38,726 bases of DNA from Boothiomyces macroporosus. Its lineage: Eukaryota > Chytridiomycota > Chytridiomycetes > Rhizophydiales > Terramycetaceae. Shown piece by piece: positions 2,634 to 38,160 of the stretch (its first letter is position 1; each line of letters begins with the position of its first letter). The notes beneath the pieces were generated by a model, which ran no database searches, was not told the origin of the DNA, and saw nothing but the letters and a program-made list of their open reading frames with translations. Both the position numbers and the translations under genes were made by a program. The stretch spans positions 1 through 38,726 of the forward strand of contig JADGKB010000119.1 in NCBI GenBank assembly GCA_027604185.1, written 5' to 3'.

Positions 2634-5331
2634 ATGGCAAGAGATCAATTATATTTGTTGGCAAGCAATGCAGACAAGCTAAACTTGAACAACCCCAACT
2701 TGAAAAAATTACTGGAAGAACGACTAAAGATACAAGGAGATATTGATCAATTAATGGGAAAATATGTTTTGGAATGCATTAGAACCATTCACCAGTTGCA
2801 CCTAGAGAATGCAGAATTGGGGATGAAGGATAGCAAAGCCGTTAGTACTTTGATTGCAATCATCATTTGCTGTGGAATCGTACCATCGCTGGAACCAGAA
2901 TTGAAAAATCTGCTCTTGAAAAGATACAAGTACCCATCCTCTGTAAAAACAAACATATCCCATACTAGTTTGGCTTACATAATCAGCTGGATAAGGAATA
3001 GAAGAAATCCAACTTTTGTGGGGGAAATTATTTTACAAAAACACTACAGCGAAGTACTATTAATTCTGATTCACAATGACAATACAGTAGAGCTGAAGCT
3101 TAATCAAATGCAAATCTCCAACATTGAAAAGGACATTGTACCAAAAGAGATACAAACGGAATTGCAAAAGTACTTTGAATTCAATGGCGATTTGATAAAC
3201 ATGGAAATATATGCCAAAAAGCTTCCAACGTTAGGGATCTTGAATTCACTGATTAAAATGATGATGAATTCATCCCAATTTCCGGATTACATAAAAGCTA
3301 CCACTACAAAGTATCTCTATCAAACATTACAAAGACCAGATGGCTGTGCCAGCTTGTTCCACAGTCTTATAAAACAAGACCCAGATGGTAATATTTATTA
3401 ACGCAGACCATATTACATTCCTTCATTTTGAAAAGATTTCCAATATAATCCAGTCACCGAGGTATGTAGATTTACCAACATATTACAATATAATCTGCAA
3501 ACAGCTTTTAGAAATCCTGAATAGTTCAACCGAAAACAAAACAAATGGGGCTTTGGACAGCGTAATAATATCCATCAAATGTGCGGCATTTGTGATTGTG
3601 AATTTTGTAAACAAGAGACCAAAAATGGCCAAAGCGTTGTTGATATCACCTATTCTCCAACCGATACTCAACTACATTAAACCAGTGTATGATTCTACTC
3701 TAGATACGGAATTGGATTTGGATGGAAATAGAATAGTTACAACAAGCAAAGATTTACAACAGTGTCTGAAAAATTTGGAAAATTTACTGGTTGGGAATGA
3801 ACCTAGCTACGCTTTAGTCGAATGTTTTTTACCCAGTACGTCCCATCTAACTCTAGCTGTTCATCCCCTATTTGCAATATACCAATATAGCAATAGCAGT
3901 TTACAAACAAAGGTATTCCAACTGCTATCAATTATTATCAAGCTGTTGGATACACCCAAAGCTGTCGCTGTATTAATTGAGATTACAAAGAACAGCGTAG
4001 AAAAGGAATCTTTGGGAATATCAAACTCATCTGAAGGAGGAATTCAGTTTATAGAAACAAATCAGAAATAGTATATTCTATTTAATTTAGTACTTTTGAT
4101 CCAGTAATTTTGGCAAGGTTCATGTCTCAGTTGGAAAAACCAGAACTTGTTGGAGACTTTTTTGTTCAAGTACTCGAGACTAGACTGGTTCTGGTCAATA
4201 ATGATATCAGAGATACTGAAGAGTAATTCATTTTAATATCAGGCTGGCTATCTATTATTCTGGAGTCATTGTTGCATTTCTGGATACCTTTGAAGATACT
4301 CTTTTAAAGAACACAAAGCAAATACTCAAATTTGTCAAAGCGACATTGCTAGACTCTGATGATGATGAAAAGCATATGGGCTTGACGTTGCTATCTCAAA
4401 TATTCAACAACAAAGGTTTGAAATGTTTAACGTAGATGAACCTGTGGAAGACTTGGAATCTTTAAATGAAATTAAAATCATACTCTCAACATTATGTGAT
4501 GGAAACGATCAAGTAGCTTTGTTGGCACGTTCTGTTCAATTACAATTGATGTCGAGGGCTAAATCAAATACACAGGAGAGCAAGTCAGAAGAAATATTCA
4601 GAGAAGCGTTAAAGGAACTGGGCGACGAACTTTTGCCAATTAGAGCCCATGGAATGAACCAAATACGGTATTTGGTTTTACAAAAAGATCCAATCTCTAT
4701 TCAGCACCTTGATTCTATAATCAACATCTTTATCGATTTTCTACAGGATACTGACAGCTTTATCTATTTGAATGCAATTAAAGGATGCTCTGCTTTGGCT
4801 GATGTATACCCAGAGAAAACTTTAAACAAGCTGACTACAATATACAAGGACATCCAGTACACGGATGAAGTCCGTTCAAGAATGGGCGAATCTATATTGC
4901 AAATTATTCAAAGGTCGGGGGAGCTATATCCAAAATATGGTAAATGAAAGCTAAATTAAGCTGATATAATCTCACCCAGTATAATGGTAGTACTGCGACA
5001 TGAAAGCGCGCTGTTGAAATCCTCGGCAATTATATTATGTTCCCACATAGCAAAACAATCTCCCAGATCCCTCCTTTTATTCATTAATCAACTTTATGAT
5101 TACGCAATCGGGACTATTCAGTTTGAAAAAGACTTGGATATAAAGAAGAGCATACTTGTCCTAGCAACTAATCTAATTCGTAACTTGAAGAACGACCTTG
5201 TACAGCATGTCGGACTTGACCAGTTGCATAAACTTAAAACTCTCCTTGAGATTTTGGTGTTAAATGAAAAAGACTTTGTTGTCAAGGGTCACGCAGAAAT
5301 GTGCCTCGATGATTTGAATAATTTGATATAA
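2634..5331 (+). CDS. TANGO6: TANGO6/Rtp1-like HEAT-repeat protein
   Basis: Family role: yeast Rtp1 helps assemble and import RNA polymerase II, and animal TANGO6 was found as a transport/Golgi factor. The spliced model has six exons and 865 aa. Introns are 3388-3406, 4071-4090, 4223-4242, 4416-4435 and 4940-4960 (19, 20, 20, 20, 21 nt); removing them gives one open frame. The C-terminal half carries the diagnostic Rtp1 C-terminal signature: LLPIRAHGMNQIRYLV, then DTDSFIYLNAIKGCSALAD, then a last helical repeat with ALLKSSAI and GHAEMCLDDL. The rest is alpha-helical HEAT-like sequence. No membrane segment is evident. The ATG lies 80 bp beyond a tRNA gene. Family call is firm; the exact function in this lineage is inferred. 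Confidence 0.85.
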
Positions 5332-5415
5332 TAAAGCATTGCATTAAGATGGATAAATTGATGGATACAGCTACGGATATCCGCCAGATACCCGTTTAAT
5401 ATCCGAATGCCTCAG

Positions 5416-5486
5416 CGGAAAAATGTCCTTTCGGAAAACAATGGAATTAAATGTCGGAAAAAATATTTTCCGCGGCTGGTATAAAA
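5416..5486 (+). promoter_or_regulatory. Promoter of first GST gene: TATA box and CGGAAAA cluster
   Basis: A TATAAAA box at 5480-5486 lies 32 bp before the ATG at 5518. Upstream are four copies of CGGAAAA: forward at 5416, 5432 and 5455, and reverse (TTTTCCG) at 5466-5472. The last two make an almost perfect 18-bp palindrome. Clustered identical motifs next to a TATA box suggest binding sites for an inducible transcription factor. The factor is unknown. The downstream paralog shows no such cluster. Confidence 0.5.
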
Positions 5487-5517
5487 GTAGGTTATTTGGC
5501 AATTACAACATATTCAA

Positions 5518-6153
5518 ATGGCATCTCAACTCTACTTCACTCCTACTTCTTGCGGCGCTGCATCTTACATTTCTGCCAAGAAAGGCGGGCTTATCGGAAC
5601 CAAAGTTATTCCTAACCTCGTCGATATCAGAGAACACAAAGTGAAATCTGGTGCTTTGAAAGACACTGATTACTACAAAGTAAACCCAAAGGGTAACGTT
5701 CCTACCTTGATCTTGGAAGATGGCACTATTTTGAATGAAAATGCTGGTGTATTGCAAAAGATTGCTGATCTTGCACCAGCTGGAGCTCTCGCGCCAGCAA
5801 ATGGAACCAACGCAAGATACTTGTTGCAATCCAAGTTGTCCTACATTTCATCTGAAGTACACTCCTCATATGGTCCACTATTCAACCCAGCTACTCCAGA
5901 AGAAGTCAAAAAATGGACCTCAGCCAAGATTGCAGCCAAGCTCGATTATTTGAACAGAGTTGATTTGGCCGGAAAGAAATACATTGTCGGAGACTCGTTC
6001 ACTGTTGCCGACGCCTACTTGTACATTGTTCTTTCATGGTCGCCTTTCGTTCAAGTTGATTTGTCAAAGTATCCTGAAGTTGAAAGATATTTCAAGGGTA
6101 TTGCTGAATTGGACTTTGTAAAGGAAGCCCACGCCGAAATGAACAAGTTTTAA
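5518..6153 (+). CDS. Glutathione S-transferase, beta-class-like (paralog 1)
   Basis: A single-exon 211-aa cytosolic GST expected to conjugate or reduce electrophiles with glutathione. The N-terminal thioredoxin-like half has Tyr6 and the beta-class Cys12 in PTSCGAASY, the cis-proline region NPKGNVPTL and the glutathione-binding pair E-N (LNENAG). The helical C-terminal half has SYISSEVHSSYGPLFNP, with the His typical of bacterial beta-class enzymes, and the N-capping motif GDSFTVADAYLYIVLSW. Overall likeness to proteobacterial GSTs is strong; such genes are widespread in fungi, so transfer is possible but old. It is followed in tandem by a close paralog of equal length. It has a recognisable TATA promoter, unlike its neighbours. 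Confidence 0.9.
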   Translation: MASQLYFTPTSCGAASYISAKKGGLIGTKVIPNLVDIREHKVKSGALKDTDYYKVNPKGNVPTLILEDGTILNENAGVLQKIADLAPAGALAPANGTNARYLLQSKLSYISSEVHSSYGPLFNPATPEEVKKWTSAKIAAKLDYLNRVDLAGKKYIVGDSFTVADAYLYIVLSWSPFVQVDLSKYPEVERYFKGIAELDFVKEAHAEMNKF

Positions 6154-6298
6154 CTTATAATAAACTATTACGGTAAATTTCAATACTATAATCAACTGAT
6201 TGTGAGTTTGAATTAGTGGCAGTGATTATTCGCGGATACCACCTGATTTAGATCACCAGTTGATCACATATCAATGGAGAGAGGAAGCTTATTTTTTC

Positions 6299-6934: not shown

Positions 6935-6996
6935 TTTTTTGAATATATTTTGGTTTGTATTGATAATTTTCAATCTCTTTTTTTTCAAAATCAGAA

Positions 6997-7934
6997 ATGC
7001 AGAGAATATTCAGAAATTCGTTTGCGACGATATCGAGACAGATTCCAAAGTTAATTACTCCAGTATCAGACGGAAGCGGACCTACTCCTGTACCAGTGTA
7101 CCAGCAAGGAGCGAGAAGAACCGGATTAATTGCGTTGAAAAAAGGAATGACTACCCTGTGGGATGAATTTGGACAAATGGTTCCAGTAACTGTTTTAAAA
7201 GTAAAGGAATGCAACGTATTGGGAACTAGATATCACTCTGGATGCGGGTCGTATATGTTGCAAGTTGGTGCAGTCAACCACCCAAAATTGCACAGAGTAA
7301 AGAGACCACAGCTATTCCATTATAGAAAATTTAAAGTGCAGGCAAAAAGAAAACTAAAGGAATATAAAATATCTCCAGACGCCTCGATTCCTTCTGGTAT
7401 TAGGTTTTTAATGAAAGGTTTCCAACTGAGAGCAACACATTTTGTTCCTGGTCAATTTGTGGATGTTCAGGCAAAGACTGTCGGTAAAGGGTTTCAAGGT
7501 GTAATGAAAAGATGGGGATTTAAGGGAGGAAGAGCTTCTCATGGTAATTCTTTGAAACATCGTGCTGCAGGGTCTATTGGTCAATGTCAAGTAATTGTAT
7601 TTAATTGCAGGATCCTGGTAAAGTATGGAAAGGCAAAAAGATGGCTGGAAGAATGGGCGGTGTTTATAGAACTGTGCAATCCTTAAAAGTAGTTAAAATT
7701 GACTCTGCTCATGATCTTATTTATGTCAAAGGTGCGGTTCCAGGAGTAGATAACGCCTATGTGTCTGTTTCTGATGCCATTAGAAAAAGCTGGCACGGAA
7801 AGTGTTTTCCAGCAGGTGCTCAAGTTCCATTCCCAACCTACTTTGGAAGTAGCGAAGTTGAACGGGAACTATGTGCTCCTATCGATGAAAAAGCCTTTGA
7901 TCCTTTCGCAAGAACCCGCAGAGAAAAACCTTAA
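6997..7934 (+). CDS. MRPL3: Mitochondrial large-subunit ribosomal protein uL3m
   Basis: A structural protein of the mitochondrial large ribosomal subunit near the peptidyl-transferase region. The spliced product is 305 aa with one 20-nt intron (7591-7610). Splicing joins GSIGQCQ to DPGKVWKGKKMAGRMG, reconstituting the most conserved loop of the L3 family; this fixes the intron boundaries with high certainty. Other landmarks are GLIALKKGMTTLWDEFGQ and GKGFQGVMKRWGFKGG. The first 20 residues (MQRIFRNSFATISRQI) are basic and free of acids, a plausible mitochondrial presequence. It lies 62 bp after the second GST. Confidence 0.95.
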
Positions 7935-8527: not shown

Positions 8528-8542
8528 ATCTGATGCCATTTA

Positions 8543-11500
8543 TTAATCCCATGTTGGACGGTTTGGGCCCAACAAAAACATAGAATCACCTGGTTGAACT
8601 TTTGAGCTTTTATCTGGATTTAAGACTACGTAATTGAACATGTTTCCTTCCTGATTTTGTCTGTATAGGGCAATTATAAGGCACTTGTGTTCCCAGAGCA
8701 TGTATGAAAACAAAGTACCAAACGGCATCCCAACAAACAATTCATTTTCTGGGAGTGGTTCTTGGAAAAAGTTGCCAAAATCGGTGTTTGGAGTGCTAGC
8801 AGCCTTCTTTTCTTCTGTGCCATTAAACAGAAAGGCTTTCAACACGGACAGCAAATTCTTTTCATAATATGCTTGACACAAGACAGAGTGGAACATTTCT
8901 TGAGAAAATAAATGACCACCGCAGAATGAAGGAATGATATTTTGCATCTGTACTTCCACTGCATCACTGGAAACCACTTTTGAGCTGGACATGTGGCTCT
9001 TTCCAATGATTTTCATGTTCTCTGAATGAATAAATTCAGAAGTAACAAAGTTGTCTGTATTTTCACACATTGCTTGGATATTGAGTAGAGCTAAAAGTGT
9101 AGTAGCGTCAGAAACTCGCTCAGTGATATTGCTCTGGTATGGATCAGAAAAACAAACTGTTCTTTTTGCTAAATTAATGTTTTTTACCATGAGTAATTCT
9201 TGTTTTCCTTAAATCTTTTCTTAGGAGAGGTGTTCCAATAACGTAAAATATGTTTTCATACTCTTCAATTACCTCCCATTCTTCACTACTCGGTGGAGAT
9301 TTGCAAAGAATGACTATAGCAGTATCAGGATCTTTTTGCCTAAATGGCGCTACAAAGTAAGCGATTGCTAAAGGAAAGTTTTCTTGAAGGCAACAATATA
9401 CAATGTGATCATTAATATCTGCAGGAATACTAATCCCTTCTTTATATTCCAATTTGTCCATCGCTTCCATGGCAGAATGAATCGCCCTGAATCTAGCAGG
9501 AACACCAGATTGCGAATAAGATTCACTGTATTCGTCACCAGATTTTTCAGAAGTGGCGGAAGGAGCACTTTGCTTTCCAGTTTCTGAGATTGGAGATACA
9601 TTTTCTTTGTCGAGCATGTGTTTAACTTTGACGCTTTCTGCAGAGCTCATCCTTCTGAGGCTGAAATCACCACTTTGGCCAGAATTACTTCTGTGGAGCG
9701 AGTGGGCTCTTGGAGCTTCCTTTTCAACGGCAGACTCTCCTGATTTTGCTGAACTAGATCGCTTCTTTTGCACCAAATCAAATGCTTTTTGTCTAAGCTT
9801 ATCAACAACTCTGGGAATCGATTCCAAAGACTGTTGTGAATCCAGGCCCCCTTTTGAATGAAATTCTACATTTTTATGCACCATTGGAGGTTTCTCTGCT
9901 AGGAATGATTTGATCTTTTCATGGGACCAAAAGTCTTCTGAAAACATCTTTTCCGTTTCAGCAAGATGTTTGCCAACATGATACTTGGAAACCCTGTGTG
10001 CGGTTTTGCTGTCATCGGCAATCAAAAATGCAATTTCACCTTCTTTTAGGATTGTGCCTATTGGATTCAAGTTTAGTTTTAATTCATCTGCATCTGGATC
10101 TTGTTCGCCTATGGCAAACAAAATTGCTCCATGTTGCTGATAAGCAAACATTGCTGCCTCTTCATAAGTCATATTTTGGAATTTTTCGCACAAGTTAACT
10201 TGATACAGCTCCATCTGCGCACCTCCGAGATATTCATCTGCCCACTGAGCTTTGACCTGCTCAGCTAGAACCTTTACCGCATGGTCTGATATAGAATTTG
10301 TTAAAAGATATAAAATAGTAGAGAACCCAGGAGATAAGCAATTTTGAGCTGCCATACCTAAATAAGCAATAAAATACCGAGTTTAAATTCGTCGATACAA
10401 AGTACTTGATCCGCAATATTTTCCAAATGAGTTTTGTTCCTTGGTAAAAGAATTTGTGCATAAATCATCAGGTCTGGATGAAACTTGCGAAGTGACTAGT
10501 TTAAAATGTTCTTACCAAACATCTCATGACGGTTCTAGCATCTTCCTCAATAGGCTCTACATCTGATATTCTACTAGCCAAAACAAAAGCTGACAATTAT
10601 CCAATAGATACCCGCTTTGGCAAGATGCACTGCCGCACTTTTCATTGCTTTAAAAGACATTGGACTTCCTTTAACATACTGAACTCTGTGCTCGTACACT
10701 GGGTCAGATAATAAAGCTTCCAAATCCTCACTAGGCTCATCAACTGCCAAAAGCACAACATGAGTCGTCAGGGTTAAAGTTCCATGGTCCGTAGCTAAAT
10801 TAACCAGACGTTACCAAAAAATTCTCTCAAGAATCCACGAAGTGCTGTTATTTCCAAATTTCCAAGAATAACAACATGACTTCTACCACTTTTTGGTACA
10901 AATGGAGCAGCATACTTTGATGTGCTTTTAATCAAATCCATAAGTTGTCCAAGCTGAGTAGGAAGGTAAACAGCACCCACCAACATAACCCCTAGCGTAA
11001 TTACTCGAGAAAACATATTATCTGGAACAATATCTGTCGACAAACCAGAGGTTACAGAGACTGTGATCGTATAGAAGATATCAAAAAAGTTGAGATCATA
11101 GTACTTTTGGATTTTGTACAAGCAAATATGAACGTAAGCAGCAACTGTGAATAAAGTATTAAAGATGGATAATGCCAACAAAACTACTTGCTGCTGTACT
11201 GGTGTCATTCTGAAAAACTTGTTTTGCCCTAACTCTTAATCAATACTAACCAACTTTGAAAGTTCTAGCAATAGAACTGTGTAATCTGATATTAGATAAA
11301 TAAACCTCCAAAATCGGAAAGGGTATAAATACACTAGAGGTCCTCCTTCTAAAAAGGTTCCTTTACTCAGTACAAAATCAAAGTAAACCAAAACTGCAGC
11401 ACCAAACGATGCAATAGTAAATATGGACCAAGTAGATTCGAGCTCTTCTAACGGTGAAAGATTAAAGTAGATTCTCGGAGCCCATTGAGCAAATAGTGCA

Positions 11501-12154
11501 AACGCAATAAAGAAATCAATATCTTTTTGTCAATAATACTTACCTTCGTAGATCCTGGGTGGAGGCGGCGGTGCTATTTCCGTTCCTCTTGGCCCGATTG
11601 AGTGCCAGGTTAGCGTAATATAGGACACGACAAACAAAAAGTTTAGCAGCATATCTACCACATCCCACCACTTTAGAAATGGACTGGAATCTAACCAGTA
11701 TATGCTACATTAATCAAAAGTACATTTCCAATTTCCACTTTTCATGTTGACTAATACCAGAATCATCATCATCGCCAGAAATTTGAACCAAATCTGGTTT
11801 CTTGAAATCTGTATTGATTGATGGTTTCAAAAGGGGGTCCTTTTCATCCTTGTTTTGTTCATCTGATGAATTCAAAGATAAATCATTTGCTGAGATTTTG
11901 TTGGAGCTCTTTGATTCGACTGCTTTGGATTTTTCTGTATTCATTAGCGTGCCAACTAAATCAGCAAGCTTTTCTCCTTTTATTTCCAGCTTGCCTGTTT
12001 TCAATTCGCCTTTAATTACACTGGTGTCAGTGGTAGATTGTTTCTGGTGACTCTCCTGATTGGGTTTCTTGGAATCTGAATGCTCTTTAATCGAATTCAT
12101 TTCTCGTACTTCTGATAATGAAATTTTTTCCATTGAATCATCCGAATTGTCCAT
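8543..12154 (-). CDS. BK-type (Slo-like) RCK potassium channel
   Basis: A plasma-membrane or organelle cation channel of the large-conductance calcium-activated family. The spliced product is 1150 aa in nine exons. Introns are 11705-11723, 11523-11543, 11229-11246 (18 nt; 11233-11250 fits equally), 10795-10814, 10590-10611, 10496-10515, 10358-10377 and 9169-9187. An acidic/serine N-tail (about 140 aa) precedes the S1-S6 core. RCK1 follows with GRSHVVILGNLEITALRGFL, AVHLAKAAFVLASRISD and FKLGMAAQNCLSPGFSTILY, all close to Slo1. A serine-rich linker (about 690-800) leads into RCK2. The pore region reads TVSVTSGLSTDIVPD (near residue 350) instead of TVGYGD, so potassium selectivity is uncertain. 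No obvious calcium bowl is seen. Confidence 0.88.
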
Positions 12155-12308: not shown

Positions 12309-13311
12309 TCAAACTGGTCGCTCAGCTTGTGGTGTAACCCTTACTGCCAGCCTCCCTTCTTGTGCAAGCTCAAAATCTACTAATCCAGTGTGTGCGCAAA
12401 CTCTGTTATCCCACACTGCTATGGTATTTTTGGTCCATTTGAATCTTGCCTGAAAATCAGCGCCAATAGCAACATGCTTGTAGAGGTAGTCCAAAATATT
12501 CAAAGACTCTTCATGTTTCAATCCCACAATACTGCGCGTAAACATTGGGTTTACAAATAACGCCTTTTTACCCGTTACTGGATGTGTTCTTACAATAGGG
12601 TGTTCATTAACCACAGGCTCTCTGCGAAGAGGCAGCCCAGTTCTTCTAGCCATTTCTGCCTGCTCCTTTGCTGAATGAATTGCTGTTAATCCTTCTAGGA
12701 ACTTTTGGAAAGGTTTAGAAAGTCTATTGTATGCTTCATATTGAGATGACCAAATAGTATCACCACCAGCCCTTGGCATATCTATGTTAACAGTAGACAC
12801 CTAAAACAGACAAGAATGTCAGCCCAGGAGGTTGAAGTTCATAAGTAACATCCGAATGCCAGCGGACTGAAGTGCTGAAAGTGTCAAATAAATTGGTGGC
12901 ATGATCTTTATGGGATACAACATGGACGTATGGCTTCCCTTTTAGAATCCCATAAGTTTGATGAACATGCAACACTGGTGAAAAGTGTCTTCCGATTCGA
13001 ACCATTTCATCAATGTTTTCTCTTATATCTTGATCGCGAAAGAATACCACTCCTCTTTCTGCAACAAGCAACGCCAATTCGTCCAATTCATCAGGGTTTA
13101 AAGCTGAGAGCTGAATTCCAGATATATCATTCCCTATCAGCGGAGACATTACAACATTCTTTGTTGCTTTCGAAAGAAGCTTTTTTGTCCCCCTTGCCCT
13201 TAATCCCACATCTATATAGTTAAAAGGAGGAATAGGAGGCCCAATATCCGCCTTTTCAAAGGATGGAACTATTTTACTGAGGGTGGAATATCGCTTGAAC
13301 CACCTTTTCAT
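12309..13311 (-). CDS. TauD/TfdA-family sulfonate/alpha-ketoglutarate dioxygenase
   Basis: A predicted Fe(II)/2-oxoglutarate dioxygenase related to yeast Jlp1, which releases sulfite from sulfonates such as taurine during sulfur limitation. The spliced product is 327 aa with one 19-nt intron (12782-12800, gtgtctactgttaacatag). Splicing turns FLSVL into FLSVL-DMPRAGGDTIWSSQYEAY, the expected family segment. The iron ligands are His152 and Asp154 (WHSDVTYE) and distal His301 (WDNRVCAHTG). Arg314 or Arg318 would bind 2-oxoglutarate. The N-terminal PPFNYIDVGLRARGTK and IGNDISGIQLSALNPDELDELALL match fungal sulfonate dioxygenases. The first 13 residues are basic and could be a targeting signal. 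The true substrate cannot be told from sequence. Confidence 0.88.
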
Positions 13312-15253: not shown

Positions 15254-15293
15254 TAAATATATATCATTCAAATTATAGAAAAAAAGTAATATA

Positions 15294-16339: not shown

Positions 16340-16401
16340 GAAAAAGTAAAACTGGTTGAGGGAGAATTTAAAGTGAGAAATGCGATTCATACATACAAAA
16401 T

Positions 16402-25911: not shown

Positions 25912-26480
25912 ATGCAATACCATCTTTTCAAAACCAAACCAGAAGAGAAGCCAGTGAATCAGAAAATTCTGGGATCCGATGATTTGATATCGAAATTTGA
26001 TCTTCTTTCAGAATACGATTTATATGTTCGAGATGCGCATCACGATAATCATTATACGAAATATACCAAGGATGTCGCAGGTTGGTGGAAATTTACAAGT
26101 AGGAAAGCAAGATTTCACGCCGGACCATATGTTGGGAGAATTGGTCTTTGGACCTCCTAAGGGCGATGTTGAACCAGCGAGGTTCGAGCAAAGTGTGTTA
26201 CAGCAATCATTCACTTTACTGCCTGGACATGTTACTGTATCAAGGCGTCTAATTTTAGATTGACAAAAGCCAGTATGGATTTGACAATGAATCTGATGCT
26301 GACTCCAATCCGCCGGAAAAAGAAAAGTTTATCATCAAGCTGGGTAATCGCAAGGTTAATTCAGATTTGAAACGGAGAGATAGTGGCCAAGTGAAGATCA
26401 AGGTACTTGGGAATTCTTAAAAAAAGAGTAAACGCAAACGAGAGGACGACATTGACGGAAATATTTCCAAAGTACATTGA
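25912..26480 (+). CDS. MED19: Mediator complex subunit 19-like
   Basis: MED19 is a head-module subunit of Mediator. The spliced product is 166 aa. Introns are 26081-26102 (22 nt; acceptor 26099 also fits), 26237-26258 (22) and 26403-26426 (24). The matching features are the LISKFDLLSEYDLY helix, Y-T-K-D-V-A-GK in the position of the family's L-P-GK loop, ELVFGPPKGD, the motif QSFTLLPGHV (family F-x-L-x-x-G) and a lysine/arginine-rich end (KSKRKRED). The 24-nt intron is needed to reach this basic tail; without it the frame stops after VKIKVLGNS. I start at ATG 25912; the upstream in-frame TTG is not used. Family assignment is probable, not certain. Confidence 0.62.
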
Positions 26481-26562
26481 GTTTAAATTAGAAAGCGAAG
26501 GAGATCGATGTTGAAAATTAATTGTCATACTAATGTAATATATTTAATATCTTCATACAAAT

Positions 26563-28239
26563 TTATCTGCCCAGCTTTGAGAGCATTGAATCCAACTTTT
26601 CAATTTCATTATGTAATTCTACCTCTTTGTAGTCCTTTAAATCCGGCGCAAATTTCTTTTGTGATTTAGAATGCATTCTGGCTGCTTTGAGAGCATCCAT
26701 GTCCAGTATATCTATGTTAAACCAACTTTACCCGTAGGGTTAATGATGGAAATTAATGGCCCCAAAGTAATGCTTCCATGATTCCGTATGGTACACGGAG
26801 CACTTTTAAGCCTTGGTATTTTACTCTCTTGGGGAGGTCTGACGTGTCTAACTGATGAATACGGTCTTGCTTTGGGAAGAGAGAGATTTTCTAACACGAT
26901 ATTGCGATATTTCTTGTCTTCAACAAATGCTGTCAATTGTCTCGGGTTGTGCGTAACGGATTCTTCATCTACAAACTGTGTATGATTAATGGCGGCTTCC
27001 GATATCGGTTTGAACCGGCATTTGCTCTCTTTTTTCGTTAAAGAGTCTTTTTTTGATTCTCTAGAGGTAGGTTTGGCCAATGTGGATACAGTTGGTTTAC
27101 ATTCTGGTGTATCTGCAGAAGTGGAAGAAATGGAAGGTCCGCCAGGGAATTTCAGAGAGTTACTTGCGGTCATGGATCGGTATAATGGTGCAGACTTGAT
27201 GAATCTTTTGCTTCCAAACTCTTCATTCATTTTTTGAAGAGATTGAGAGTTAATTCTATGAAGGCTTTTTGAAGATTGCAATTTTGAAAAGTTGGTGGGC
27301 TTTTTAACTTCATAAACTTCTAACGCATGATATTCTGGCATAGAAGTGCTCAAGTATTCTAAGTTGTTTGATTTGTACGCTGAAGCTGCCCTGCTAGATC
27401 TATCCATTATTCCGCCAGAAGGCTCTGTTTTTATCACACAGCTTTTTCCGTTAGAATCCGCAAAGTAATTTTGTTTTGGTGGTGCCTCCACTGGTTCAAC
27501 TATTAGATTTGCAACATCGTGTGGTTTCTCACGAACCGGTCTAGCAGACCTGATTGTAACAGCTCTACCACTCTTTTTCTTGTATACTTGAGCAATTTTA
27601 TTTGAAGCCCTAGAAGCAGATCTTGAAGATTGAGTCCAATCGCCCGTAACATATGGCGAAGGGTCGAATTGTTCCTCGACCAGCTGATCCTCTACATTTT
27701 TGACCGGCAGTTGGATATTTAATGGTGATACGTCAATCAAATGTAAATTCTGAATGGTTTCAACCTGTTCAATTTCTGTCAAGTCCTTGTTTAGTCCAAC
27801 ATCAGACACTATATCCTCCAAGACACTCACCGGCCTGTTGACTGGCGTTGTTGTCCTGGAGTATACTTTAAATGAAGCACTAGGCTTTAATGCTCGCTCC
27901 AAATCCTCTCTTCGAGTATCCCATTCTTGTGGACGATTATCATGTTTCCTTATTTCCAAAAATTGTTCTGCAGGTGGGGCATAGTGACTAGTGATGATGG
28001 GGCTAGCTCTTCTCTCTACCTTTTTAATATGATTTTCTTTTCTTCTTGTATTAATAGCTTTCAATATTTCCGTCCTAGATTAAATTTATAGTACTCTCTC
28101 CGCTTTCTAGTTTCCATCGCGAATACTTCTGCAGCGTGATGCATTTCGTTAGACGGTGTATGTTTGACTCTTACAGGTTTGGTAAACCATTCCCGGTTGT
28201 GCCTGGGTTAATTTCAATTATTTACGAAAAGAACGACAT
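26563..28239 (-). CDS. Unknown disordered protein with tiny first exon (537 aa)
   Basis: I do not recognise this family. Four exons with introns 28203-28225 (23 nt), 28075-28094 (20) and 26712-26731 (20) give 537 aa. Exon 1 is only 14 nt (MSFF plus two bases). The N-terminus SHNREWFTKPVRVKHTPS and the helical basic stretch METRKRRETEILKAINTR look structured. The middle (100-450) is disordered, with many Ser, Pro and basic motifs (RSARPVREKP, YRSMTASNSLKF). The last exon adds ILDMDALKAARMHSKSQKKF and ends in a short helix (HNEIEKLDSMLSKLGR). A cytoskeletal or flagellar role is possible but not shown. It is divergent from the tandem membrane-protein genes. Confidence 0.65.
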
Positions 28240-29777: not shown

Positions 29778-29872
29778 TCGTAGTATTTAATAAATCTAAC
29801 AAACCCTATTTGAATGTTTGAATGGGCCTTTTGTTCATCAACTCTGGTGAGTGACGTTTCCATACTTTTGAA

Positions 29873-31195
29873 ATGCAAGAATTTCACCCATGGGTACAAA
29901 TGGGTGGGATATCGCCCAGTCCAACTTCTAAAGATATCAAGAGTGCGAATACAAATTCAGATTTAAAAGGGAGAAATATTTCAGAAAGGCGAAAGCTGTT
30001 ACCGCTAAGGAGATTAAATAACTTTCAACTACTTATTTTCATTGTTAGGAGAGCAATATTTCCAATAATAGATATATTACTGTCACTATATACAGCAGTC
30101 AGTCAGTATTCTTCATGCACGTCTTACTTCATCGCTGCCAGTTACAGTCTGCTGCTTCCTAGATATGTATTCTTCCCGTTGGCACTGCTTGCCCTAGTAG
30201 TGTGTATTGGATCATATGCAGTAATGTACTACCATATGAGTATCAGATACAGACAAGTTCGCAGGGAAGGGGTTATAAACATTAGAGAGATACTACCATT
30301 CCTAAGCAAAATGATGGCAATGACGGACAAGACACCTCTAGGAATACGTCAAAAAAAGTTTAATCTGATCGAATTAATATTTCAAGATATTGTTCAACTT
30401 GGAATTGGATACTACAATCTGAATGCTAGTAGAGTGAACTTTACTTGGCTATATTATTCAAAGATAGCCGCATCAGGTGTAAAGCTTGCTTATCAGTTTG
30501 CGAATTTCATTTCTACATATTACATGTCCAGGAGGTTTCTTGTAAAGTCTTGCCTTTTCACTCTGTTTTCTGGGATTGCATTGGCATTATCGATTGGAAT
30601 ACCCAAAGCAATGGTACTCTACGAAAATGGGATATATGTAAGGCTTCTGACGCTCAGCACTTACAACCAAACATGCTATTCATTCAACAGCGATTCTACT
30701 TTTCCTCAGAATAATATGGTGGCGGTATTTCCCCAGCATTCGTGTAGTAAAGGCGAGAGTGTGCAAATATGTTCTCCTTTCAATATGGTCAACTTGGGTA
30801 ATGCGCCATCTAGTTCGGTTGTACCTGGAGCTCAAACATCATTTTATGGACAATTTTACTACGCACCGGTTTACCAAGCATATATGAAAAAGAGTGGCGA
30901 CAGTGAAAAGCTTCTATTTGAATATGAGACTGCACCCATCACCAACGTATGCGGTAATACGGGGAATCTAGCACCAGATAGTATGTTTTTCACTAATGCG
31001 CACATAAACAATCTTTATCAGGTGAACAATACCTGGCTGTCCCTATCTGCTGGTCTCAAAATCTTGAGCAGGAATGCAGAATACAATAATGTATCATTCT
31101 ATCTAACGTATACCGACGCGACTAATGGTAATACGTACTATGCAGTGGGGATTGCTTCACTAAAGATTGAATATACCTGTCAACTCTCAGTATAA
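29873..31195 (+). CDS. Multipass membrane protein, tandem family member 2
   Basis: A single-exon 440-aa paralog of the preceding gene, 95 bp downstream. Shared landmarks are NFQLLIFIVRRAIFPIIDI, SCTSYFIAASYSLLLP, the cytosolic-looking loop KMMAMTDKTPLG, QDIVQLGIGYYNLNASRV, the last membrane helix GIALALSIGIPKAMV, then TCYSF, HSCSKG, QICSPF and NVCGNTGN. YYAPVYQAYMKKS is kept almost unchanged in member 1. It is closer to member 1 than to member 3. The N-terminal 45 residues are the least conserved and carry no signal peptide, so the first hydrophobic segment probably acts as signal anchor. Function unknown. Confidence 0.75.
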   Translation: MQEFHPWVQMGGISPSPTSKDIKSANTNSDLKGRNISERRKLLPLRRLNNFQLLIFIVRRAIFPIIDILLSLYTAVSQYSSCTSYFIAASYSLLLPRYVFFPLALLALVVCIGSYAVMYYHMSIRYRQVRREGVINIREILPFLSKMMAMTDKTPLGIRQKKFNLIELIFQDIVQLGIGYYNLNASRVNFTWLYYSKIAASGVKLAYQFANFISTYYMSRRFLVKSCLFTLFSGIALALSIGIPKAMVLYENGIYVRLLTLSTYNQTCYSFNSDSTFPQNNMVAVFPQHSCSKGESVQICSPFNMVNLGNAPSSSVVPGAQTSFYGQFYYAPVYQAYMKKSGDSEKLLFEYETAPITNVCGNTGNLAPDSMFFTNAHINNLYQVNNTWLSLSAGLKILSRNAEYNNVSFYLTYTDATNGNTYYAVGIASLKIEYTCQLSV

Positions 31196-31241
31196 TAAAC
31201 TATGTGTTTGTGGTTGAAATTAGAATGACATAATTTTTGAC

Positions 31242-32477: not shown

Positions 32478-32504
32478 AGTGTTTGTTGATTTTGACGCGA
32501 ATAC

Positions 32505-33031
32505 ATGAACTTTGCGAGCGACGAAATCGGCGCCTTATATTCATTACTAACTCCCTCTGAAGAAAAAGAACCACAGAATCAGTTTAATCCTGGTGCGATT
32601 GGGCCTAAAAAGAAGCACAATATAGTTCCAAAACCTAAAAACCCGGATGCTATTTGGGATGAAGAAGATGTCGATCTACCAGTAGAGGCATTTGATCCTA
32701 GAGAAGAACCAGAGTAGAAAACACTAATAATAGGTATGAGTTGAAGTATGTCCAAAAAGTTTCAAGCGAAGACATGTATTTGGGCATGAGCGGTCGAACG
32801 CCATCAATCGGTCATTCTGACAATCTGTCAATCTGCGTCAAACTTCCAAATACTCTATTCAAAGATATATCGATTTCAATCACTAAATCGGTATTGGAAG
32901 TGATGACCCCGAACAAGAAGCTCAAGCTGTTCTTTCCCAAGCCAGTCCAGGATGAGAAAGGAAATGCGAAATGGGAATCCGATACTTGCACTTTGAAAAT
33001 TAACGTTCCGTTGGAGCCCCCAATGTTCTAA
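32505..33031 (+). CDS. DNAAF6: Dynein axonemal assembly factor DNAAF6 (PIH1D3)
   Basis: DNAAF6 is a PIH-family co-chaperone that works with HSP90/HSP70 in the cytoplasm to pre-assemble flagellar dynein arms. The spliced product is 168 aa with one 20-nt intron (32714-32733, gtagaaaacactaataatag). Splicing gives IWDEEDVDL, FDPREEPEYELKYVQ and SSEDMYLGMSGRTPS, which closely follows the animal protein. The C-terminal half (about 80-168) is a CS/p23-like beta-sandwich (LSICVKLPNTLFKDISISI, KLKLFFPKPV). It is diagnostic of a lineage with motile flagella or cilia that keep dynein arms. It sits directly after the tandem membrane-protein genes and 44 bp before the EST1/SMG-like gene. Confidence 0.9.
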
Positions 33032-33075
33032 TAAACTGCCAGATTTACCAATCCCATTTTTCCCTTTTTTACCTT

Positions 33076-35188
33076 ATGAAAGAAAATGGAAAGAGATTTA
33101 CATTCCAAATCAAAGTAAATGGATTTAATATTAGAGAGACACAGTCATTGATTCAGGAAAAGAAATTAAATCGTAATCGCATCTTGGAGTTGTGTGAAGA
33201 TATAATCAGGTTGGATGCAGGATATGCCATACACAAACGTGTGGATGACACCCTATGGAACGCTTGCTTTTATTCCAGATTCGAAGAGTTGAAGAGCGAT
33301 TTCAAAAAATCCAAGAGCGAAATTACCCTGTTGCAGCTTCAAGGAGAGCTGGATCGTGCAAACAGCTTTTTCAAGATGCTCATATTGGATTTGACGTTTG
33401 ATAAAGATGTAAAGAATGTATCCAACGATCCTGGCTTAATGATTGCGTACAAATCCCTGATATACCTCGGGGACGTTGGTATAGAAGGATTAATATAGCC
33501 CGATATAGAACTGCGTATATCACTCCTATTAAAAACTGGACAGAGTCCTGGAACTGGTATGAAAAAGCCTACGAGCTATACCCAACAGGCGGGAAACCCC
33601 ATGCGCAGCTGGCTCTTCTCTCTGTCTATAAGATGAATGACATTGATGTGCTTTACTACAATTGTTTGAGCATTGGAAATTCTGAAACAAGTCCGGTTCA
33701 ACGAAATAACCTCGATCACTTTCTTTTAAAATACACGTCCAACCCTTCTGTACCTGTTAGTAATGAGTAAGATGAAATTAATCTAGCAACTTTGCCTACT
33801 TTATTGATTCCTCGATTACATTTTTTGGGTTCCTTTTCAAATTCAACACCGTTGGTACTGAATTCTTGCTCGAATATCTGACCAATTTGGAAGGAAATTT
33901 AAAGCAGATTCAATTTCAAGATTTAACGAAAGTGTTAAAGTTAGTGACAAGTTTTGTGATTTTTGTTCATGACTGTGAAATGCTTTTTGAATCTAGCAGT
34001 AACGCTTTACTAATTAGACCAATCTATTGAAAAGCAGCTGCTTAGACACTATCAAGTACTCGCATTCTCTCTTCTACTCTCGATTACAAAAGAATGTGCA
34101 ATATATGTAAATTCCCAACTAGAAAACGGGGATACAATCGAAGATTTGGCTGATACGGTCATTGAGCACCTGCTTCCAATAAGCGTATTGGTGACCTGGC
34201 TCTCCAACTATGTTCGAATAATCAATTCATTTATTTCGTATGGGGCAATGCTCAGGCCAAAAGAATTTGAAAATGTACTTGGCATTTAATTTAGAAATTG
34301 CATGAATGGGCTAATTCCATTGTGCCTATTGTAAACAAAGTGTCATCTTTTGCCGATATGGACGGGGGTAATGAAATTATTAGTGCTGATGCCCTATTAA
34401 TATCTCTTTCGGCTTTTAAAGACTACTACAATAGTAATTCAAAAATATTATCTTCCAACACCGATAGCGCAATAACAATATTTTCTCGTATGTCTGGATT
34501 CATAAAAAGATTGAGTGAAGATGAAGTACACCATCCTAACTTAGAAATTCAACTTTATCATTTTCAATTCACAAGAAGGACAATATATAGTTAGGGATAA
34601 TTCCACCAAACGCAAAGAGTTACAGAAAATGATGAAAGCGTTGGCGACCGAAAAGCTGAAAGATGAAGTTAAAACCTTGGAAATTCAGCAAGGTAATTTT
34701 TCAAATTTGGATTTACCAGTGTATGTGCTGGATTTGAATTGCTTCCTAAATATTTTGAATACAGTAAAGTCCTGGTTAATGTCTAAATCGTGTATAATTA
34801 TAGTACCATATGATGGTAATTGATATTAATGATAGTGTTACAGAGTTTGGATACCTTGAAGAATGGAGAAGAGAGGATTAATATCTGTGCTAGAGATGCT
34901 ATTAGGTATCTTGATCAGCGGCTGCGTTATCCTTCTATAAATTTAATTGGACAGAATCCAGAGGAGCAAACTCCAATGAATGATATTGGCAATGGGACTG
35001 TGTTCATTCCTCGGGCTTACTTGAGCATACTACAATGCTCCCACTATTTTAAAAGTAAATCGGACGAGCGAATATCCGGCGAGTTTGCCATGGTGACTGA
35101 TAATCCGGAATTGACAATTATTGCGGAAGACTTGCATATCCCTGTCATTCAAATGGAAAGTTGGAAACCAAAAAGTAGAAGAACATGA
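33076..35188 (+). CDS. EST1/SMG5-6-like NMD protein with C-terminal PIN domain
   Basis: Family members bind Upf1 through a 14-3-3-like fold and act in nonsense-mediated decay and, in some, telomerase recruitment. The spliced product is 664 aa. Introns are 33479-33498, 33767-33786, 33999-34017, 34275-34294, 34526-34544 and 34816-34835 (20, 20, 19, 20, 19, 20 nt). The first junction restores SLIYLGDVARYRTAY, the hallmark of the EST1/SMG N-terminal domain, followed by AYELYPTGGKPHAQLALLS. The C-terminal PIN domain (about 515-664) has YVLDLNCFLN (Asp520), ICARDAIRYLDQRL and FAMVTDNPELTIIAEDL (Asp636). Two of the usual acidic metal positions are visible, so nuclease activity as in SMG6 is possible but unproved; SMG5, with a dead PIN, is the alternative. 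Confidence 0.82.
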
Positions 35189-35259
35189 GGTGTTTATAAA
35201 CACTATTGAAGAATAAAACAGTTGAAAAATTCTCATTAAACACAGCATTTTCAAACAGA

Positions 35260-35517
35260 ATGGGAAAACCAGATGAGGTTGACCAAGTGCTTGAAAAGAA
35301 GCGTTTCCATAAACTGTATGAAAATCGAATCTTATAAGATCTAGCATATTAATGTGCTCCTTGTATACCCAGCACAGTTCTTGAACAGAAGCAGCAAAAG
35401 CTAGATCCGCAAGCCAATCGGATAGAAAACACGCAAACTTGGAAATCTATTTATTTTAAAGACTTCAACACGCTGGAATACAACTCATCATTTAATTTTC
35501 GCAGTTGTGAATTGTGA
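35260..35517 (+). CDS. Possible small unknown gene, splicing unresolved
   Basis: From ATG 35260 the frame reads GKPDEVDQVLEKKRFHKLYE and stops at TAA (35335). After about 50 bp the same frame reopens with TVLEQKQQKLDPQANRIEN and TWKSIYFKDF, to TGA at 35515-35517. The sequence looks protein-like (charged, helical). Two splicings keep the frame: one intron of 57 nt (35317-35373), or two of 23 and 19 nt (35317-35339 and 35355-35373). Neither has the branch-like motif typical of this window in the right place. The end overlaps the 3' coding end of IPI3 on the other strand by 67 bp, which weakens the case. I recognise no family. Confidence 0.3.
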
Positions 35518-36752
35518 TTAGTAAGCATTGCAATTTGCGCTTTTAGATCAGCAACTTCATCCTCGTTGTTATGCAATTCAATAGGCGCAAAATAATCTTG
35601 TGCAACTTTTTCGAGAGTATCAGCAGATTCTTTCTTTATCTGCACTGTATGCGACATTTCCAAATCTGCATTAGGAAATCTAGAGAATTGTGATATTTTT
35701 AAATCTTTTGGTGCTAGTTCTTGCTCTATCAATTCTGGCGGTTGAAGAATTACCGTGCATGTGGTAATTGGGCTTTTCTTTGAAAAGGTTTTAACACTTT
35801 GACGACTAGCTACATCCCATACTTGACAAGTACCGTCTTCAGAAGCGCTAACTAGCAATGACTCGTCCATTGAGAAGGCTAATTGGTGAACAATATCCCT
35901 AAATTAATATCGAATTACGTGTGTTTCTCAAATTTGTGTAAATCAAAGTCTTGCACATCAGTTACTGTGCTATAGTCACTCGCCCTTTTTTCACTGTACA
36001 AATTCGATTGGTAAATTGTACCGTCTACAGCCCCACAATATACTGATGTCTCGGTTGCGTTAACGGCTATTGCAGTTAAAGAACGCGGAAACATGACTGT
36101 CCCAATATTTTCTCCAGTGATTTCCCATATTTTGCAAGACTTGTCCATCGAACATGAATATACTCTGGCATGATTGTAAGGTAATAGTGAAATAGATAGC
36201 CCTGTGATAGGTAAAGAATGCCCAGATAAACTAATACTGGTAGGTATACTATCCTGTGGAAGAGTTAAATCCAATAAATTATTAAATGACCAAACAAGCA
36301 CTTGAGAGTCCTTTCCTCCAGTTATCAATCTCATATCATCCACTGTAAACTTTATACAGCTAACCGCTTTGTAGTGAGCATCAAACATTCGAATCATGCG
36401 TCCAGTTTCAATCTATATTAGCATGGTATACCTCCCAAATATATATCCGTCCAGATTCTCCACCGCCAATGCAAAACTCTCCTGAATTTGAAATTTCCAT
36501 TGCAGTTAGTTTTTCAGGAACAATAAATTTGAATAGTGAGGGCGATTTAGAAAATTGATAGACGTTAACTGTACTCTTGTCCAACTGTGGTGTCAAAAAC
36601 AATCCAGCTCGAAGCCAATACGACTTTCTAATCGCAACGCAGCTACTGAGATTTGCCTTGTACGATGCAATCAACACTCCTGTCCGTATATCCCAGCAGT
36701 GAATGACATTTTCCTTGTTTGAACATGAAATTGCGACCTCGATATTATTCAT
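35451..36752 (-). CDS. IPI3: IPI3/WDR18 pre-60S ribosome assembly WD40 protein
   Basis: Ipi3/WDR18 belongs to the Rix1 (PELP1-TEX10-WDR18) complex, which matures the large ribosomal subunit in the nucleus. The spliced product is 420 aa. Introns are 36413-36431 (19 nt, gtataccatgctaatatag) and 35899-35918 (20 nt). WD40 blades are visible at CWDIRTGVLIASYK, YIWEIETGRMIRMFDAHYK, LITGGKDSQVLVWSFNNLL, YSCSMDKSCKIWEITGENI, VYCGAVDGTIYQSNL and SASEDGTCQVWDVASRQSV. The GGKDSQVLVWS blade and the C-terminal coiled coil (about 385-420) are characteristic of this family. I start at ATG 36752 because the upstream extension is hydrophobic and overlaps the divergent neighbour. Only 19 bp separate its ATG from that of MOCS2B. 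Confidence 0.88.
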
Positions 36753-36771
36753 TCTGCAAAAAAAAGAAAAA

Positions 36772-37227
36772 ATGAAGACGAAAATTGAAATTACCAGAAA
36801 TGAAATTCCCATTCAGGATACGATTAAAGAGTTTAGCAACCATAGCGTCGGTGCGATTGTTTCGTTTCTGGGAACTACAAGGTCAACATTTACTGATGAG
36901 AGCGGAGTTACCAAACAAGTTCAATATTTGTCCTATGAAGGCTACGAACCAATGGCTATAAAAGTAATGAGTGACATTGCAAAAGAAGCGAAAGCACAGT
37001 ATACCGATTTAGATGGCGTAGCAATTATCCATCGCCTGGGAATAGTTGGTCTTGCCCAAGAATCAATCTTGGTTGTGACTGCTTCTCCGCATAGGAAAGA
37101 TGCTATAGATGCGGTTGGCTGGATAATGGATAAAGTCAAAAAACTAGTTCCGATTTGGAAATTGGAAGTATACACCGATGGCTCGACTTGGAAGGAAAAC
37201 AAGGAATGGAGGGATAGAAATTTATGA
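36772..37227 (+). CDS. MOCS2B: Molybdopterin synthase catalytic subunit (MoaE/MOCS2B)
   Basis: This is the large subunit of molybdopterin synthase, which adds the dithiolene sulfurs to precursor Z using the thiocarboxylate of MoaD/MOCS2A. It is single-exon, 151 aa, the usual length. Motifs are VGAIVSFLGTTRS, LSYEGYEPMAIK, IIHRLGIVGLAQESILVVT, ASPHRKDAIDA and KKLVPIWKLEVYTDGSTWK; the lysines in the last motif match the active-site lysines of the family. I start at ATG 36772; the upstream in-frame ATG at 36703 lies inside the opposite-strand IPI3 coding region. It is head-to-head with IPI3 (19 bp) and tail-to-tail with CWC24 (20 bp). A molybdenum-cofactor enzyme must be encoded elsewhere. Confidence 0.93.
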   Translation: MKTKIEITRNEIPIQDTIKEFSNHSVGAIVSFLGTTRSTFTDESGVTKQVQYLSYEGYEPMAIKVMSDIAKEAKAQYTDLDGVAIIHRLGIVGLAQESILVVTASPHRKDAIDAVGWIMDKVKKLVPIWKLEVYTDGSTWKENKEWRDRNL

Positions 37228-37247
37228 TTTATTAATATATAAACTAA

Positions 37248-38160
37248 TTATTCTTCTTCTTGCATTTGCTTTTGGATTTCAAGTTCCTTTTCCTTCATGC
37301 GCTTCTTCTTGGCATCAAGTTTGCTAACTAGCTCTTTGGCGACGTTGAACACACCCTGAGTGTTTTGATTACACGCATAGCATCCAGGCGTCTTCTTGAA
37401 TTGCTTGATTGCGCAGGCTTCGCAAAAATAATGTTTACATTTGGTGACAACAGGCGATTTGAAATCGCCTCTACATATCAGACAAGCAAATGGCAGATCA
37501 TCATCACTTTCTACTTCATTTTCTACTTCAACAAAGAAGCGGTTGGGATCGTTTTCTTCAGCTTTTTTTCTCTGCATCTACATTAGCAATATTTACCTCT
37601 TCCCATTCCTTGTCAAGTTCCCAGCCCATTTTGTAATCGCCTCTATCGTGCATAAACACACAGCCATCACCGAACCCACAATAACCAGTTTCCTTATAAT
37701 CTTTACATATCGCTGGAGCGTAATCAAACCGACAAGATATTCTCACATTTGTTTGTCCTTTCAACGGACCAGCTCTGATTCCACCAGCATTCTTTTGAGT
37801 TATTTTTTCCTTCTTTTTGTTGATGTATTCCTTGTAATTATCTTTTCCTGTATACAAATTATCTAGTTTTTCGGCCTGATCCCCTGCAATGATATCTTCT
37901 GCACCATCAATATCAAGTGTTCTGGTAGCTGAATCATTTCCTAGTTCCATAGCGGTTCCAGAAGCCTTGAAGGCTACTCCAAGTGCGGTCATATTTTCAT
38001 CAATGTGGATATCCTCTCGATCTTCTGGTGTCTTTCCTGACTTTCGTTTCTTTAATTGTGACGCTGATACAACTTTTGAATCTTCTTCCTGCTCGTCGTC
38101 CAAAGCTGCTCGCTTTCGAAAGACTTTCTTTTTCGACGATTTCTTGAATGCCAATTCCAT
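37248..38160 (-). CDS. CWC24: Pre-mRNA splicing factor CWC24/RNF113
   Basis: Cwc24 binds the 5' splice site region of the activated spliceosome (Bact) before the first step. The spliced product is 297 aa with one 19-nt intron (37578-37596, gtaaatattgctaatgtag) between EWEE and [11 protein letters not shown] basic acidic-patched N-terminus is followed by the family segment [20 protein letters not shown]. The CCCH zinc finger is at about 152-171 ([20 protein letters not shown]). The RING is at about 220-260 ([41 protein letters not shown]). A helical, Lys/Glu-rich tail ends the protein. Both domains and their order match RNF113A/Cwc24. Its presence matters here because every intron in the window is extremely short. 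Confidence 0.93.

Follow-up and report, generated by a model that had tools for sequence, protein, structure and literature searches.

The window analysed here, a whole stretch of 38,726 nucleotides (nt) from contig JADGKB010000119.1 of the chytrid fungus Boothiomyces macroporosus (assembly GCA_027604185.1, positions 1 to 38,726), carries genes interrupted by introns of about 20 nt. The existence of this class of tiny introns is confirmed, and its interpretation is supported: judged from the sequence, the segments are most probably (we put the probability at about 90%) spliceosomal introns of the ordinary major class (U2-type) that have come to a near-minimal length of about 20 nt wherever the genome was sampled. 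The reading is carried by a narrow length peak, splice signals at fixed spacing, the rejoining of conserved proteins, and splicing components that, so far as they were checked, look ordinary.

Intron lengths in the window and across the genome

The original prediction had placed 50 introns of 18-24 nt in 14 genes between positions 3388 and 37596, with lengths of 18 (1), 19 (11), 20 (27), 21 (5), 22 (4), 23 (1) and 24 nt (1). Our gene finder was run independently of that list, with iterative training on a 238.7-kilobase (kb) sample made of the window and 20 ten-kb contig starts of the same genome; it replaced an initial gene finder without splice-site models, which was too weak. In the window it called 51 introns, 50 at 19-25 nt plus a single 34-nt prediction. 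The 34-nt prediction (31190-31223) was dropped because it fused two tandem paralogous genes, and a 20-nt intron at 22318-22337 was added by eye, its removal joining a 66-residue upstream frame to the remainder of the gene. The final list again holds 51 introns, of 19 (10), 20 (28), 21 (7), 22 (4), 24 (1) and 25 nt (1), and its first and last members coincide with the predicted start and end. The intron at 23890-23914 was called at 25 nt, and 22 nt is equally possible in frame.

Does the peak appear when no length is favoured? In a length-unbiased run on the sample, introns of 10-250 nt competed equally, a GT, an AG and a coding gain were required, and splice-site weights were learned. Of 222 introns, 144 fell at 17-25 nt with the peak at 20 nt (19 nt, 30; 20, 73; 21, 24; 22, 13; 23, 3; 25, 1), and the remainder were thinly spread over all lengths. 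Since donor GT and acceptor AG are imposed by the gene finder, the identical procedure was applied to five other dinucleotide pairs as controls; these gave 16/151, 7/149, 7/127, 13/142 and 15/182 introns at 17-25 nt, without a peak. A second run used a length prior learned from the unbiased result, so that short introns are favoured by construction. It called 288 introns in 147 genes, 270 of them at 19-25 nt and 267 at 19-23 nt (19 nt, 53; 20, 134; 21, 54; 22, 23; 23-25, 6; other, 18), with no intron of 15 or 16 nt and a single one of 14 nt. At least one intron is held by 105 of the 147 genes, and the density is 1.48 per kb of coding sequence. Extrapolation from 270 introns per 238.7 kb, that is from one contig and 20 contig ends, gives about 17,000 introns genome-wide.

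The class is not a peculiarity of the window. The 20 contig-end samples outside it contain 220 introns of 19-24 nt, and 13 further loci, fetched for splicing genes, contain 69 introns (some counted twice where loci overlap), 64 of them at 19-24 nt and the others at 29, 31, 41, 46 and 68 nt. When GTAA followed by YTAAYN(1-2)YAG was counted without gene models, 85 occurrences had a spacing of 19-22 nt and 0-3 fell on every other value between 14 and 60, against 9 at 19-22 nt and 0-5 elsewhere in the reversed sequence. The whole assembly (15,203,306 bases, 216 contigs) was also scanned for GTAAGT followed by TTAAYNTAG, with a total length of 16-46 nt allowed, and yielded 120 matches versus 56 for the pattern read backward. 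Among the 100 of these 120 matches that were listed, 58 are of 19 nt, 27 of 20, 9 of 21, 4 of 22, and one each of 41 and 46, so that 98 of these 100 are 19-22 nt long. The tight peak near 20 nt is thus borne out beyond the window. An excess of stop codons in introns whose length is a multiple of three (47 of 56; permutation mean 38.1) was rejected as evidence, because the gene finder is blind to such introns when they lack stops.

Tiny introns also occur in series. On the minus strand of locus L014 a 21-nt and a 20-nt intron follow each other with zero exon bases between them, and in the Isy1 gene (locus L035, 1259-1299) two 20-nt introns are separated by a 1-nt exon. These arrangements look like sequential splicing, not like a single 41-nt intron.

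The window introns are given below with coordinates, strand, length and gene. All were called by the gene finder except where marked, and additional support is given in brackets.

3388-3406, plus, 19 nt, TANGO6/RTP1-like gene (2634-5331; Pfam RTP1_C1 and ARM_TANGO6)
3836-3856, plus, 21 nt, TANGO6/RTP1-like gene
4071-4090, plus, 20 nt, TANGO6/RTP1-like gene
4223-4242, plus, 20 nt, TANGO6/RTP1-like gene
4416-4435, plus, 20 nt, TANGO6/RTP1-like gene
4940-4960, plus, 21 nt, TANGO6/RTP1-like gene
7591-7610, plus, 20 nt, ribosomal protein L3 gene (6997-7934; Pfam Ribosomal_L3 146-231 spans junction residue 198)
9169-9187, minus, 19 nt, potassium-channel-like gene (8543-11208)
10358-10377, minus, 20 nt, potassium-channel-like gene
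10496-10515, minus, 20 nt, potassium-channel-like gene
10590-10611, minus, 22 nt, potassium-channel-like gene
10795-10814, minus, 20 nt, potassium-channel-like gene
11523-11543, minus, 21 nt, gene model 11236-12154
11705-11723, minus, 19 nt, gene model 11236-12154
12782-12800, minus, 19 nt, weak donor GTGT, TauD-like gene (12309-13311; Pfam TauD 57-319 spans junction residue 170)
14998-15017, plus, 20 nt, mitochondrial carrier gene (14382-15253; three Mito_carr stretches)
15413-15432, minus, 20 nt, LST8 gene (15294-16390; protein alignment)
15698-15717, minus, 20 nt, LST8 (protein alignment)
15950-15970, minus, 21 nt, LST8 (protein alignment)
16134-16153, minus, 20 nt, LST8 (protein alignment)
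16203-16222, minus, 20 nt, LST8 junction 1 (no gap against the four nearest chytrids; one extra residue in seven others)
18723-18742, minus, 20 nt, gene 17935-19715
18899-18918, minus, 20 nt, gene 17935-19715 (inside a weak PHD-finger match)
19211-19230, minus, 20 nt, gene 17935-19715
19459-19478, minus, 20 nt, gene 17935-19715
19608-19628, minus, 21 nt, gene 17935-19715
19901-19921, minus, 21 nt, gene 19742-20539
20046-20067, minus, 22 nt, gene 19742-20539
20166-20185, minus, 20 nt, gene 19742-20539
22318-22337, plus, 20 nt, gene 22121-24153 (missed by the gene finder and added by eye; frame join confirmed)
22564-22582, plus, 19 nt, gene 22121-24153
23389-23407, plus, 19 nt, gene 22121-24153
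23890-23914, plus, 25 nt (or 22)
26081-26102, plus, 22 nt, weak donor, gene 25912-26521
26237-26258, plus, 22 nt, gene 25912-26521
26344-26364, plus, 21 nt, gene 25912-26521
26403-26426, plus, 24 nt, less certain, gene 25912-26521
26472-26491, plus, 20 nt, gene 25912-26521
26712-26731, minus, 20 nt, gene 26563-28144
28075-28094, minus, 20 nt, gene 26563-28144
32714-32733, plus, 20 nt, PIH1 CS-domain gene (32505-33031; the Pfam PIH1_CS match, 68-162, starts at junction residue 70)
33115-33134, plus, 20 nt, EST1/PIN-domain gene (33086-35188; Pfam)
33479-33498, plus, 20 nt, EST1/PIN-domain gene
33767-33786, plus, 20 nt, EST1/PIN-domain gene (within the EST1_DNA_bind match)
33999-34017, plus, 19 nt, EST1/PIN-domain gene (within the EST1_DNA_bind match)
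34275-34294, plus, 20 nt, EST1/PIN-domain gene
34526-34544, plus, 19 nt, EST1/PIN-domain gene
34816-34835, plus, 20 nt, EST1/PIN-domain gene (within the PIN-domain match)
35899-35918, minus, 20 nt, WD-repeat gene (35451-36752; Pfam)
36413-36431, minus, 19 nt, WD-repeat gene (35451-36752)
37578-37596, minus, 19 nt, CWC24/RNF113A gene (37248-38160; human RNF113A and yeast CWC24 alignments cross junction residue 188)

The names DNAAF6 (the PIH1 CS-domain gene), IPI3 (the WD-repeat gene), BK channel and mitochondrial L3 are those of the original prediction; their support is limited to Pfam domain matches, and the name of the channel gene is kept as it was given. The L3 gene is unique in the genome. 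The gene model at 11236-12154 may belong to the channel gene as its upstream part. For the gene at 17935-19715 a shortened protein gives a PHD match of 22 bits, below the cut-off of 24, and the whole protein gives none; the genes at 19742-20539 and 25912-26521 have no Pfam match. Between 28437 and 32477 lie three tandem genes, recognised by eye, for similar multi-pass membrane proteins, two of which the gene finder fused. At the left end are two genes for tRNA-Leu with an identical anticodon on opposite strands (6-89 and 669-752). The last 55 bases of the contig (38672-38726) repeat 2469-2523, inside another tRNA-Leu gene, and the contig probably ends in this tRNA repeat.

Protein junctions, intron anatomy and splicing machinery

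Removal of the segments rejoins conserved protein. LST8 was compared with its fungal relatives, 12 of them at the first four junctions and 11 at the last, and conserved protein is rejoined at five of five junctions. At junctions 2-5 conserved residues meet with no gap after removal of introns of 20-21 nt; junction 1 is gap-free in the four nearest relatives (Globomyces, a metagenome protein, Polyrhizophydium and Batrachochytrium), and one relative is divergent there. A PUF gene (locus L040) has ten junctions, of which six fall in well-conserved sequence and four in poorly aligned sequence; among the six, five are gap-free in all seven comparison proteins and the sixth in five of seven. Human RNF113A and yeast CWC24 align across the sole junction of the CWC24 gene, with gaps close by.

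The anatomy of the introns was measured on the 270 of 19-25 nt, with the branch match found by a hand-set score. GTA starts 94% of them, and they end in TAG (71%), CAG (18%) or AAG (11%); their GC content averages 29%. The branch motif is exactly YTAAY in 176 of the 270 and fits the GUAGUA box of U2. The best-scoring branch A lies at -6 in 127 introns and at -7 in 112 (239 of 270 together). Counted from the 5' end, it is commonly nt 14 in 19-mers, 15 or 14 in 20-mers, 15 in 21-mers and 16 in 22-mers, thus usually nt 14-16, and the positions from both ends therefore indicate that each side of the branch contributes about 1 nt to the variation in length. Because only 3-4 nt separate branch A from the AG acceptor, the two sites are practically fused, with no room for a pyrimidine tract between them. 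The donor +5 position is G in just 21% of the 270, despite a canonical U1 5' end able to pair with it.

What kind of spliceosome goes with these introns? Two copies of U2 small nuclear RNA (snRNA) of 193 and 191 nt, both with GTAGTA, and one of U6, with the ACAGAGA box, score above the cut-off. U1 scores 68.8 bits versus a cut-off of 69.5, with the whole model matched (163 nt) and ATACTTACCTGG near its 5' end. The two U2 genes (loci L022 and L023) are nearly identical in the first half, which holds the recognition box, and clearly different in the second. The SF1 gene has the helix-hairpin, KH domain and zinc knuckles. The U2AF65 gene has three RNA-recognition motifs, and its genome match is below the curated family cut-off, probably because introns split the gene. 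Cwc25 was found with its N-terminal MGGG kept, MGGGDLNLKKSWHP being aligned with human Cwc25. Isy1 was also found; the 5' end of its model holds the 1-nt exon, which makes its N-terminus a weak test of the clash idea for the ciliate Stentor. Prp8 is present as far as the fetched locus extends. The models at the SF1, U2AF65, Cwc25, Isy1 and Prp8 loci themselves carry tiny introns. In sum U1, U2, U6, SF1, U2AF65, Cwc25 and part of Prp8 look ordinary, which covers, for this genome alone, part of the splicing-gene comparison that the original prediction had proposed. Equal-scoring matches were seen for Cwc25 on contigs C49 and C100, and others twice on one contig (45 kb apart on C20, 42 kb apart on C36), suggesting duplication or unmerged haplotypes.

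Protein similarities place the host among the Rhizophydiales, as a chytrid close to Globomyces and Terramyces. Its LST8 shares 88% identity with that of Globomyces pollinis-pini and 79-80% with those of Polyrhizophydium and Batrachochytrium, a result on which an aphelid, rozellid or rhizarian source was discarded. The glutathione transferase (5518-6150) is nearest to Terramyces at 84%, the window's own entry aside. For the PUF protein Globomyces is second-best (67% over 63% of the query). Its top score is an entry labelled Rhizoctonia solani (P0121; 63% over 51% of the query), which may be mislabelled or a contaminating sequence.

Alternative explanations and a possible mechanism

Could a substantial second class of normal-length introns have been missed, both by the gene finder and by the original prediction? 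Longer candidates do occur, and they count against a uniform tiny class: 18 of the 288 predictions lie outside 17-26 nt (the dropped 34-nt one included), 7 of them with a branch-like motif, and so do the 5 of 69 in the further loci, at 29-68 nt. Among the latter is a well-formed 46-nt predicted intron in Isy1 (L035 1761-1806) with excellent signals, a GTAAGT donor and a CTAATGTTAG end, which is a candidate for a rare longer class; the 41- and 46-nt matches of the genome scan point the same way. The original prediction accepted no longer intron, which stands within the window; elsewhere some of the longer predictions may be real, and the tiny class is probably dominant, not exclusive, with some longer introns in the genome. 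A substantial second class is nevertheless unlikely. The non-peak predictions of the unbiased run are as thinly spread as those of the controls, only 2 of the 100 pattern matches listed exceed 22 nt though up to 46 nt was allowed, and LST8 and the alignable part of PUF require only introns of 19-21 nt.

Other explanations deny that these are major-class introns. Ciliates have internally eliminated sequences, short DNA units with conserved ends, and one might think of similar removal as DNA here, or of minor-spliceosome or self-splicing chemistry. We regard this as very improbable, since the segments have GT-AG ends and a branch motif fitting the U2 GUAGUA box, major-type U1, U2 and U6, the snRNAs searched for, are present and the host is a fungus, while a GTAA donor is unlike that of U12 introns and a self-splicing intron needs far more than 20 nt. 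Least credible of all are assembly or sequencing errors or gene-breaking insertions. Like errors, most segments introduce a frameshift or a stop into the coding DNA, but errors would carry no splice signals, and the segments share GTA, YTAAY and YAG at fixed spacing, form one narrow length class, and restore conserved proteins when removed.

Besides the longer introns, several points weigh against ordinary spliceosomal introns fixed near 20 nt. The case for splicing of the segments is made from conserved protein and reading frames, and some gene models may be wrong in variable regions. At LST8 junction 1 the seven more distant relatives carry one extra residue. U2AF35 was not recognised among 17 zinc-finger matches, 13 of which were examined and four left unread (12 loci, partly translated or searched in both orientations for a motif that we take to be of U2AF35 type, and one more read), which makes this a weak test; the U2AF35-binding motif of U2AF65, as we presume it to be, looks kept, and this suggests that U2AF35 itself was missed by the search. 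RED (RED_N) was not found in the genome search either, again a weak test that does not imply absence. Finally, whereas the anatomy was measured, the order of assembly events, the hand-over described next, is something that we infer.

How may a spliceosome handle an intron of this size? In human B complexes the 5' site-U6 helix takes 17 nt and the branch-U2 helix 14 nt, 21 nt apart, which gives a minimum of about 52 nt, and in human extract splicing of model pre-mRNA stops at a 5' site-branch distance of 46 nt (PMC6692369). Efficient binding of U2AF65 needs at least 8 pyrimidines (PMC8363638). In the chytrid the distance from 5' site to branch is about 14 nt, less than the extended human U6 helix and much less than the minimum of about 50 nt, so U1 and U2 would not sit side by side. 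The splice sites would instead be paired across the intron as one composite signal, in which recognition of the fused branch and acceptor falls to SF1 or U2. U1 would not be retained beside U2 but would pass the 5' site on to U6, with the branch held by U2 meanwhile. Since a 20-nt intron cannot hold both the 17-nt U6 and the 14-nt U2 helices, short core pairings alone would be used in place of the extended ones. Two constraints would hold the length: a floor, with no room below about 19 nt, and the distances from branch A to the two ends, each fixed to within about 1 nt.

A wider proposal, to which we give somewhat less than an even chance, is that in one lineage of fungi almost all introns have become fixed at about 20 nt, while the spliceosome, which assembles by such a hand-over, has otherwise stayed canonical (U1, U2 and U6 of full length, intact Cwc25 plug, SF1, U2AF65). 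The machine may even depend on this length, longer introns being poorly spliced or resolved as two serial tiny ones.

Known tiny introns and the meaning of the chytrid case

The class of tiny introns is itself known, and the original prediction rightly named nucleomorphs and ciliates; mikrocytids have to be added. Chlorarachniophyte nucleomorphs have introns of 18-21 nt in Bigelowiella natans and 18-23 nt across four genomes, with no 5' motif beyond GU and with shrunken U1 (102 nt) and U5 snRNAs (PMC6461891). They share with the chytrid the length class, many introns in a compact genome and conserved snRNA recognition boxes (PMC6461891). Unlike these relict nuclei of green algae, the host is a chytrid with 94% GTA donors, a strong branch motif and a U1 match of 163 nt; the nearest named proteins are chytrid with one exception (the entry labelled Rhizoctonia solani), and a relict algal nucleus does not fit. 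The heterotrich ciliate Stentor coeruleus has introns of 15-16 nt with a weak branch consensus and the branch A 6 nt from the 3' end, and a Cwc25 without the N-terminal glycine plug (PMC9505925). The chytrid resembles it in near-minimal uniform introns and a branch A about 6 nt from the 3' end, but its introns are about 5 nt longer and its Cwc25 keeps the MGGG plug. The rhizarian parasite Mikrocytos mackini likewise has uniform tiny introns in a nuclear genome, 224 predicted ones of 16-17 nt, with a strongly reduced spliceosome (PMC10245619), whereas the chytrid lengths are mostly 19-22 nt and 288 introns are predicted in 238.7 kb alone. Paramecium and Nyctotherus also have only very short introns, of about 25 nt (PMC5014332), some 5 nt longer than those of the chytrid. 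In Yarrowia, Giardia and Trichomonas the branch stands at a fixed short distance from the AG without a pyrimidine tract between (PMC2483917). Branch and 3' site are similarly fused in the chytrid, with branch A at -6 or -7; those organisms are intron-poor and have longer introns, while in the chytrid each kb of coding sequence carries about 1.5 introns and the distance to the 5' site is fixed as well.

Among fungi, a survey of 644 genomes reports a short mean of 63 bp for Cryptococcus and an average of 3.93 introns per kb for two chytrids, and no class of about 20 nt appears in its available parts (PMC8476143). Among the titles listed in literature searches of partial coverage we saw no report of tiny introns in a fungus, so that a report may already be in print.

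One practical consequence concerns annotation, since settings made for longer introns would miss tiny ones. Assemblies of Rhizophydium megarrhizum are about 15.3 megabases long, and its metagenome-assembled genomes were annotated with a Saccharomyces model; for one isolate completeness is 76.9% for the genome versus 40.5% for the proteins, a gap that the authors link to partial gene models and to fragmentation of genes, and contigs of one single-cell sample have homology mostly to Globomycetaceae (PMC13391722). Tiny introns would fit this completeness gap, which is a guess on our part.

The more general meaning lies in the spliceosome. Earlier tiny introns come from relict nuclei, giant ciliates and a reduced parasite, with changed snRNAs or proteins noted, whereas the chytrid places its branch A at nt 14-16 beside ordinary snRNA boxes, against a human limit of 46-52 nt. 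If the reading with a canonical spliceosome is true, shrunken snRNAs, a reduced spliceosome and the lost Cwc25 plug would not be required. As the fungal machinery is closer to that of yeast and human, comparison with a chytrid with normal introns could isolate what permits tiny ones.

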